In this document: piece after piece, positions 495-6,166 of the stretch
Layout of the letters: the number at the start of each line of letters is the position of its first letter
Position numbering within the stretch: the stretch's first letter is position 1
Virus record (IMG/VR): IMGVR_UViG_3300037071_004601
Span: 1 to 25,729 of that record
Origin: a virus
DNA: 25,729 nt
Direction: 5' to 3' (one strand)
The notes under the pieces: generated by a model
What the model saw: the letters and a program-made list of their open reading frames with translations, nothing else
What the model was told of the DNA's origin: nothing
Database searches by the model: none
Translations under genes and position numbers: made by a program

Positions 495-1493
495 TTGCGA
501 CTGCCGTTCATTCAGGTGACGCAGGAAACATGGAGCAAGGCCCGCATGCTTTCCGGGCTCTTGGCCATTCCGGAGAGGGAGTGTCTGGGGCTGATTCTCG
601 ACCTCTGGGCATGGGGACTCGAGCTCGGGCCGCAGGATGAGGCGCCGACCGGGGTCTGTGACAACCCTCGAGCGGTAACGATGTTGGCAGGGGCGCTCCG
701 GTTTCAAGGGTCGAGCGCGGAGTTGGCCAATGCCCTGTCGGACGTCGGACTGATGGAGGCGCTGGAGTCCGGAGGCATCCGGATCCGCGGACTGGACCGG
801 TATAAACGGACCTGGAAACGCAACCGTGTCGGGAAAAGCGCGGAAACCGACGCGGAACCGACACCAAGTGCGTCGGTTTCCGACACCAAACCGACAAATC
901 CCGACGCGAAACCGACGCACCAGACGCAGACGCAGACGCAGAAGAAGATAAAAACAAAAGAAGAAGAACCGAATCCGATCTCCGCGATGGGAAGTCTCCG
1001 GCTTCCGATTGATGCGAAGCCTGAACGGAGAAAAGAGCCGGCCCCGCTCAAGCCAGGATTCAAGCCCGGTGAGGTTTTCTTTCTTTGGGCTCAAGGCGAA
1101 CGCGAGCAACAGGCCGGCCTGATTCCGGAATTGAGCCTGGACCCACCAGACACCGAAGCCTGGTTCGCCGAGGCGTCGGCCGTCGTCGGGAGCCTCGACC
1201 GGCTCAAGGGGACCTACAACGCTTTTCTGGTGGACCCGTTCTGGATGAAGAACCGGAACCGCTGGGCTCAATTTCGGAAGAAGTGGCGCGACTTTGTCCC
1301 CCCGGCCGAGGCACCGGCTCCACCCGTTCCGGCCTGTCGGGTCTGCGCCTCCACGGCCAACGTCTCCGGGGGCTGGTGCTCGCCATGCGGCGTGGCATGG
1401 CAGAACTCCGACGCGGCTCGGGAGGTCATTACGGCCGACGACCCGAATGCGCTCATTGAGGCCTGGGTGAGTGGGCGGAAAGAGGCCGCATGA
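495..1493 (+). CDS. putative phage replication initiator / replisome organiser
   Basis: A 332-residue protein starting at TTG 495 behind a strong purine-rich site (GAGGGGG, 483-489). Residues 1-110 form a compact predicted alpha/beta domain ending in a winged-helix-like segment (IRIRGLDRYKRTWKRN). Residues ~115-160 are a low-complexity linker with repeated KPT/DAKPT and QTQTQTQ, then a Lys/Glu-rich patch. Residues 161-275 form a second helical domain, followed by a zinc ribbon with C281-x2-C284 and C295-x2-C298. An N-terminal DNA-binding domain, a long linker and a C-terminal domain are typical of phage O-type initiators, which bind the origin and recruit the helicase. No helicase or polymerase motif is present. 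The linker-coding DNA carries repeats that could be the origin itself. The name is inference from architecture. Confidence 0.5.
   Translation: MRLPFIQVTQETWSKARMLSGLLAIPERECLGLILDLWAWGLELGPQDEAPTGVCDNPRAVTMLAGALRFQGSSAELANALSDVGLMEALESGGIRIRGLDRYKRTWKRNRVGKSAETDAEPTPSASVSDTKPTNPDAKPTHQTQTQTQKKIKTKEEEPNPISAMGSLRLPIDAKPERRKEPAPLKPGFKPGEVFFLWAQGEREQQAGLIPELSLDPPDTEAWFAEASAVVGSLDRLKGTYNAFLVDPFWMKNRNRWAQFRKKWRDFVPPAEAPAPPVPACRVCASTANVSGGWCSPCGVAWQNSDAAREVITADDPNALIEAWVSGRKEAA
844..970 (+). other. candidate intragenic replication origin (iteron-like repeats plus A-rich tract)
   Basis: Inside the putative initiator gene, 844-918 holds six direct copies of CCGAC (847, 858, 880, 891, 901 and 912), three of them extended to AAACCGAC (844, 888, 909), and one inverted copy (CGTCGGTTT, 871-879). 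Next is a (CAGACG)3 run at 921-938, then a 30-base tract at 941-970 that is about 70% A+T in otherwise GC-rich DNA. Clustered initiator sites next to an easily melted tract inside the initiator gene is the arrangement of the lambda origin in gene O. The alternative is that the repeats only reflect a repetitive Thr/Pro/Asp/Gln linker. Confidence 0.4.
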
Positions 1494-5531: not shown

Positions 5532-5795
5532 ATGGCCACGGACACAAGCGAAAACGCTGGATCCCCCCGTCGCAGGCGCGGTCCCCCTCTCCGGACCCTG
5601 AAGCACCTCCGCGTTTTCGTGGCCAAAGTGCTGCGCGAGCTCAAGGCGGAAGGGAATGGCGGCGACCCCAACACCGCCCGCTGCCTCATCTATGGGGCGA
5701 AGGTGCTGTCGGAGATCATCTCTGGTTCGGACCTGGAGGCGCGGATCGAGCGGCTCGAGGGGAAGCGGCCCGAGAGTCCGGCCGGGGTGCAGTGA
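5532..5795 (+). CDS. small terminase-proximal protein (possible small terminase subunit)
   Basis: 87 residues from ATG 5532, with GCGGAGG at 5521-5527. The N-terminus is strongly basic (SPRRRRGPPLRTLKHLR). The rest is helical and ends in SDLEARIERLEGKRPE, a segment I associate with small conserved proteins encoded just upstream of phage terminases. Small terminase subunits bind packaging sites and activate the large subunit; size, basic N-terminus and position are compatible, but no helix-turn-helix is certain. It overlaps the HNH gene. Confidence 0.45.
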   Translation: MATDTSENAGSPRRRRGPPLRTLKHLRVFVAKVLRELKAEGNGGDPNTARCLIYGAKVLSEIISGSDLEARIERLEGKRPESPAGVQ

Positions 5796-6166
5796 TGGAG
5801 GTGGGCGACCCCGAGTACATGCGCGCTGCCTACAAGCGTTACTACGCGAAACATGGGCCACGCATCCGAGAGAGCAAGCGGCATGCGTCGAGGAAACGTC
5901 AGTACGGACTGACGCCAAACGAGTACGCGCGGATGATTTTCCTTCAGAACGCGGCATGCGCGATTTGCGGAAAGCCACAGGAGGCCGAACGGTGGGGCAG
6001 CCTGTCGGTGGACCACAACCACGCCACAGGAAAGACCCGGGAGTTGCTGTGCAGTGGGTGCAACAGGATGCTCGGGTATGCGCACGACGACCCGGACTAT
6101 TTGAGATTGGCGGCCGAATACCTGGAGAAGCATGGCTCAACTGGAATCACGAGTAGAGGCCCTTGA
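5795..6166 (+). CDS. HNH endonuclease, T4 endonuclease VII-like
   Basis: About 123 residues. ATG 5795 overlaps the previous stop as TGATG; GTG 5792 adds one codon. The endonuclease VII domain is clear: C55-x2-C58 and C86-x2-C89 bind structural zinc, D73-H74-N75-H76 is the His-Me core, followed by G79-K80, LLCSGCN and a helical tail (DDPDYLRLAAEYLEKHG). T4 endonuclease VII cuts branched DNA before packaging, and small homologues next to terminases are common. The gene overlaps the large terminase by 35 nt, so packaging and nuclease are likely co-translated. It could also be a homing-type nuclease, but the tight overlaps argue for a resident gene. Confidence 0.8.
   Translation: MEVGDPEYMRAAYKRYYAKHGPRIRESKRHASRKRQYGLTPNEYARMIFLQNAACAICGKPQEAERWGSLSVDHNHATGKTRELLCSGCNRMLGYAHDDPDYLRLAAEYLEKHGSTGITSRGP

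Follow-up and report, generated by a model that had tools for sequence, protein, structure and literature searches.

Introduction

For the Rep proteins of TP901-1 and Tuc2009, binding to direct-repeat regions within their own genes was reported, and these regions serve as ori (PMC8965321). The same general architecture is found in published descriptions of lambdoid origins (PMC7466680). In the phage SPP1, oriL is located within gene 38, and direct repeats and an A+T-rich unwinding element are present in this gene of the origin-binding protein (PMC6316719). Rac was reported with an active origin, oriJ (PMC3945230); oriJ may or may not lie in the Rac gene ydaU, which is compared below. An initiator gene that carries its own origin is thus a kind already known, and the phage analysed here probably adds a further case.

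The window is the whole analysed stretch of a virus record of 25.7 kb from an environmental sample (IMGVR_UViG_3300037071_004601, positions 1–25729). One of its genes encodes a replication initiator, and a block of repeats followed by an A+T-rich tract lies in the middle of this gene. Judging from the sequence, the block is very likely an intragenic phage replication origin that is bound by the N-terminal domain of the initiator itself.

Initiator gene and protein

The gene, its domains and the elements in its linker are located as follows.

495..1493, + strand: replication initiator gene, 332 aa, TTG start (PHROG matches; relatives in other IMG/VR contigs)
495..836, + strand: N-terminal winged-helix-like domain, aa 1–114 (AlphaFold2 model; putative DNA-binding role)
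844..916, + strand: iteron array, about seven 8-bp AAACCGAC-type sites
921..942, + strand: hexanucleotide ladder (CAGACG)3CAGA, CAGACGCAGACGCAGACGCAGA; the same DNA repeat is present in nine genes of the clade
939..974, + strand: A+T-rich, purine-rich tract, candidate DNA-unwinding element (from sequence; P=0.0014 against synonymous recoding)
1065..1490, + strand: C-terminal helical domain and Cys-rich tail, aa 191–332 (presumed role in replisome or helicase recruitment)

The initiator matches two profiles annotated as 'replication initiation protein', phrog_9474 (E=1.2e-7, residues 6–157) and phrog_3926 (E=1.1e-4). According to the N-terminal domain profile match, it belongs to the phrog_9474 replication initiation proteins. 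It does not belong to the lambda O family, as neither of these best PHROGs is O-like. In the AlphaFold2 model (42-sequence alignment, pLDDT 93.9), aa 1–114 form a helical domain with a beta-hairpin, which is winged-helix-like. In the BFVD structure search, this domain matches 'Primosomal protein 1' (E=5.5e-5), and a weaker BFVD/Foldseek match is a phage replisome organiser N-terminal domain protein (E=8e-3, prob 0.99, rmsd 10.2). No Pfam match (Phage_rep_org_N-type N-terminal fold) was found for the initiator, and the comparison with PDB structures gave no significant match. The residues 191–267 are modelled as four helices (pLDDT 61–89 by ten-residue block). The linker, aa 118–181, is modelled as disordered and is encoded by the repeat block and the sequence after it; a disordered linker can accommodate such repeats. 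The model agrees with the sequence-only reading, in which the block encodes a disordered linker between two domains of the initiator.

Repeat block in the linker DNA

The CCGAC core is present on the + strand at 847, 858, 880, 891, 901 and 912, and on the − strand at 872. These seven copies in 75 bp are the densest cluster in the window, and CCGAC is not enriched across the whole window. Exact AAACCGAC sites are located on the + strand at 844, 888 and 909, and an exact inverted copy is located at 872–879. The variants GAACCGAC, TTTCCGAC and ATCCCGAC are located at 855, 877 and 898, respectively. The A+T content is 70% at 941–970 and 73% at 945–974, and the three highest-A+T 30-mers of the whole 25.7 kb begin at 939, 940 and 945. 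The earlier counts of six direct and one inverted CCGAC copies in 75 bp, of three exact sites on the + strand, of a (CAGACG)3 run and of a 30-mer with about 70% A+T were all reproduced. The repeat spacing had been called irregular, and this point has to be corrected. The cores are spaced by 11, 22, 11, 10 and 11 bp, which indicates helical phasing in which the reading frame is not kept, and the correction is in the direction that favours an origin. The lag 11/22 score of the linker is 23 against 6.2 expected (P=0.002).

The repeats were compared with a null model in which the same peptide was recoded at random with the codon usage of the phage. By recoding, 2.4 copies of CCGAC are expected (P=0.001), and 0.28 copies of AAACCGAC are expected; none of 20000 recodings reached 4. 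CCGAC and AAACCGAC were picked post hoc, and the fair comparison is by motif-free tests, the best 7-mer and the best 8-mer, each of which gave P=2e-4 against protein-preserving shuffles. The A+T content of 942–971 is 70%, as compared with 54% expected under synonymous recoding (P=0.0014). No 7-mer occurs at least four times within 90 bp elsewhere in the window or in the 12.8 kb completing the circular map. When the parts of the initiator gene are compared, all three kinds of repeat pair (in-frame, out-of-frame and inverted) are significant in the linker, and the repeat pairs of the winged-helix and C-terminal parts are not above protein-preserving shuffles.

Circular map and neighbouring genes

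The left end of the window overlaps the contig IMGVR_UViG_3300037070_004394 (L066, L067) at 100% identity, and the right end corresponds to the opposite end of the same contig at 99.8%, with 12.8 kb of new sequence between. With both overlaps joined, the map is circular and measures about 38.6 kb. The added 12.8 kb part contains RecE-like, Erf-like, methyltransferase and helicase-like genes, and a RusA-like gene is also recognised in the phage. Neither DnaB nor DnaC of the phage was recognised in the parts examined, and no helicase loader gene was recognised near the initiator, in contrast to lambda or Rac. An Endonuclease VII-type resolvase gene (window 5792–6166; PF02945, E=6.6e-23) is located just upstream of the terminase gene.

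GC skew had been proposed as a check of the origin. No turn is found at the repeat site, and the sign changes about 7 kb upstream, where the gene orientation switches. GC skew was therefore uninformative and was dropped as an origin marker; it speaks neither for nor against the origin.

Comparison with the described systems

In Tuc2009 (Rep, orf16), with TP901-1 ORF13 as a sister case, the initiator gene also contains repeats. The Tuc2009 gene has an 11/22-bp ladder, then a ladder of short period and then a stretch rich in A+T, and the window linker shows the 11/22-bp ladder as well. The gene order is similar, with an annealing protein, SSB or methyltransferase, and RusA. The second ladder of Tuc2009 has a period of 5, whereas that of the window has a period of 6, and Tuc2009 has a low-GC host. 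The initiators are compared by fold only, through the weak replisome organiser match described above.

In lambda, as in the window, iterons and then a purine-rich A+T tract lie in the middle of the initiator gene, and the repeats are out of frame. However, lambda has four annotated 18-bp iterons 20–24 bp apart, whereas the window has about seven 8-bp sites in 11-bp steps and a hexamer run. The window initiator is in another PHROG family, and no P-like loader was recognised next door. Of the lambda-like origin suggested in the sequence-only reading, the architecture, repeats followed by an A+T tract, therefore stands, but the family does not. By protein and by array, the window initiator groups with the phrog_9474-type and Tuc2009-type initiators, not with lambda O.

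The Rac prophage gene ydaU (E. coli 442/2), considered together with the phrog_9474/2509 initiators, encodes a related winged-helix domain (the Rac protein matches phrog_9474 with E=8.4e-27), and its linker carries iterons, a short repeat run and an A+T tract. The Rac iteron is GCGTTAC, the ladder is another one, and a DnaC-like gene, ydaV, follows. SPP1 oriL in gene 38 is likened to the window by its published description, not by sequence.

Relatives and their ladders

With the N-terminal domain as query, 15 loci were found first, and then 80 in a wider set. The annotated phage relatives include Faecalibacterium phage FP_Lagaffe, Paenibacillus phage Harrison, Myxococcus phage Mx9, Microcystis phages, epsilon15 and Rac. 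Scans of genome contigs for the N-terminal domain and a plasmid search gave no matches. The non-redundant set consists of 76 genes, seven with HNH domains and 69 without. A recurrent layout is found in the linkers of the relatives: an iteron block, whose sequence varies by phage, comes first, then a run of short period, then a stretch rich in A+T, and in many cases a hairpin. Hairpin stems of at least 7 after the A-rich tract were found 16 times against 3.2 expected. This hairpin, common in relatives, is absent from the window (best stem 3); its absence, like that of a recognised loader gene nearby, counts against the origin.

With synonymous-codon shuffles of the 76 genes, 7-mer repeat pairs are 3–7 times the expectation at codons 111–170 and about 1–2 times elsewhere. 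Out-of-frame direct pairs number 919 against 123 expected, and inverted pairs 543 against 232; the excess is greatest for the out-of-frame pairs. For lags 11 and 22, the z values of the window's clade are 8.2 and 8.9, and those of the other relatives are 21.5 and 11.1. Lags 11/22 reach P<=0.01 in 39 of 69 initiators, as compared with three of 69 for the control lags 13/17/19. A second run with periods of 5/10/15/20 nt is present in most relatives (z>20 at lags 5, 10 and 11), and lags 5–20 reach P<=0.01 in 43 of 69 initiators. The period of this second ladder is 5 in most clades and 6, (GACGCA)n, in the window's clade; the window itself does not have the period-5 ladder (lag-5 P=0.22). By the coarse 7-mer test, only 15 of the 76 genes pass. 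The lag and out-of-frame tests were designed afterwards and are partly post hoc, and they were checked by control lags, other gene segments and lambda O.

Lambda O, whose iterons are annotated, served as a positive control and is significant for out-of-frame and for inverted pairs. Tuc2009 rep also passes as a positive control; its annotation reads 'contains origin of replication', and lags 5, 11, 15 and 22 are seen in it. TP901-1 rep, with a published origin, shows the 5-nt ladder only and failed the codon 105–200 test, which indicates that the repeat test is not fully sensitive.

A protein-independent search for a hexamer run and an A-rich tract gave four initiators of one family among unrelated coding repeats. 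GACGCA alone was rejected as an origin marker; most of its matches are unrelated coding repeats, and the initiator matches are one clade. As unrelated proteins with the repeat also give DADADA, an origin cannot be recognised by the hexamer alone.

Nuclease fusions and possible domain exchange

In two genes, L056:3001–3762 and L057:3001–3771 (L057 = L027), the winged-helix domain is fused to a T5orf172/MUG113-type (GIY-YIG superfamily) domain, and both are without linker repeats. L056 is located directly upstream of the initiator of L021, which carries repeats. Odn of ICP1 is an origin-directed nuclease with a RepA_N domain and T5orf172, and it cuts only with iterons (PMC8263062). By analogy, L056 and L057 are candidate Odn-like origin-directed nucleases or homing genes, and their resemblance to Odn fits the winged-helix domain as the origin-recognition part.

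An HNH domain is located directly after the winged helix in L080, L092, L112, L123 and L152 (Pfam match), and in L116 and L125 (similar sequence, no Pfam match). The ladder lies downstream of the HNH domain in at least three of these seven genes (L092, L112 and L123), and apparently also in L080 and L116. A weak DnaB_2 match is present behind the ladder in L123. The nine nuclease fusions were considered as a repeat-free control; since several HNH-type genes keep the ladder downstream, this was dropped, and they serve only to check the effect of position.

The E. coli Rac prophage ydaU genes L054 and L055 have a common C-terminus, unrelated N-terminal domains and different linker repeats. The difference is consistent with an exchange of the domain and the origin together.

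Constraint at the DNA level and other readings

The CAGACG repeat is read as QT (QTQTQT) in the window and as DA (DADADA) in L018. Likewise, ACCAGT is read as TS (TSTST) in L074 (=L029) and as PV (PVPVP) in L075 (=L030), and the N-terminal domains of L074 and L075 are 94% identical despite the different linker frame. The same DNA repeat is thus kept in different reading frames among relatives, which indicates that selection acts on the DNA. In the clade of the window, the hexamer run mostly keeps to one frame, and without L018 the run alone could be a protein repeat. The repeats in the initiator gene are accordingly under DNA-level constraint, and the A+T-rich unwinding tract adjoins them at the sequence level. 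A comparison of homologous linkers had been proposed, in which conserved nucleotide repeats with varying amino acids would support an origin. The result favours the origin; the repeats are at the same place, their sequences differ, the copies are out of frame, and the frames vary.

A purely protein-level explanation, which had been left open, is disfavoured by these results. In this explanation, the repeats would be a by-product of a low-complexity disordered linker (KPT, QT and EE runs) and codon bias. The linker is indeed modelled as disordered, KPT and QT residues do recur, and slippage can expand simple repeats, as L021 has about ten units. However, protein-preserving shuffles do not reproduce the repeats, the excess is greatest for out-of-frame copies, the 11-bp and 5-bp periods break the reading frame, and relatives read the same DNA in different frames. 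None of the 11/22-bp and 5/10/15/20-nt periods is needed by the protein. We regard the by-product explanation as very unlikely.

DNA-level constraint would fit any protein-binding array, and iteron-binding initiators often autoregulate. The repeats could therefore be an operator by which the initiator controls the expression of its own gene, with the origin elsewhere. The array, however, lies 350 bp inside the gene, and the most A+T-rich tract of the window comes after it. In Tuc2009, TP901-1 and lambda, the reported origin has this same layout, and no comparable cluster is present elsewhere in the map of about 38.6 kb. An operator without origin function at this site is unlikely. The free combination of winged-helix and C-terminal parts in the two Rac ydaU genes, and the joining of HNH and GIY-YIG domains to the winged helix, would also suit a recombination or module-exchange hotspot with no origin. 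A hotspot leaves the 11-bp phasing and the adjoining A+T tract unexplained, and exchange is equally expected if the domain and the origin must travel together, so that this explanation is extremely improbable.

Proposed mechanism and the second ladder

For the intragenic origin, we infer protein binding, melting and helicase loading at the window block as follows. The N-terminal winged-helix domain would bind the AAACCGAC-type iterons, which follow one another at intervals of one or two helical turns (11/22 bp), and the bound initiators would assemble into a nucleoprotein array along a single face of the helix. Strain from the array would open the adjacent purine-rich A+T tract 939–974. The hexamer ladder between the iterons and the tract may orient or extend the complex toward the melted strand. 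The C-terminal domain would then recruit the helicase, which is probably that of the host, as no phage DnaB or DnaC was recognised in the parts examined.

DnaA-trios are an element of bacterial oriC. By analogy with them, the short-period strand-asymmetric ladder is possibly a distinct element, a register for the initiator or for C-terminal-domain subunits on the opened strand. This idea is tentative and is drawn from the layout only. If it is true, REEKRREE or TVPNLT linker runs are coding by-products of a DNA element. If the second ladder is functional, it offers a testable step in DNA opening by phage initiators. The family-wide second ladder is the most interesting remaining point, and it may be undescribed so far; searches of open-access text gave no description of a ladder of this kind in the initiator genes of phages.

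According to these results, origins in uncultured phages can be located from sequence alone, by searching the linkers of initiator genes for out-of-frame repeats phased at 11 bp. Linkers of low complexity, which are generally set aside as disordered protein, become candidate DNA elements. The results also suggest joint diversification of the iteron sequence and the initiator N-terminal domain, as was reported for PLE satellites (PMC8263062).

Period-5 ladders, for example ACCNN, AGANN or AGGNT, are present in the initiator linkers of L148, L099, L103, L136, L058, L093, L061, L155 (epsilon15), L157 (phiPSA1) and L160 (Tuc2009). In Myxococcus phage Mx4, the long 'hypothetical protein' gene p24 (L063:892–2190) carries a dense GTCACGC array in both orientations and out of frame. 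This array probably marks a further intragenic origin, in a gene whose N-terminus is of another type.
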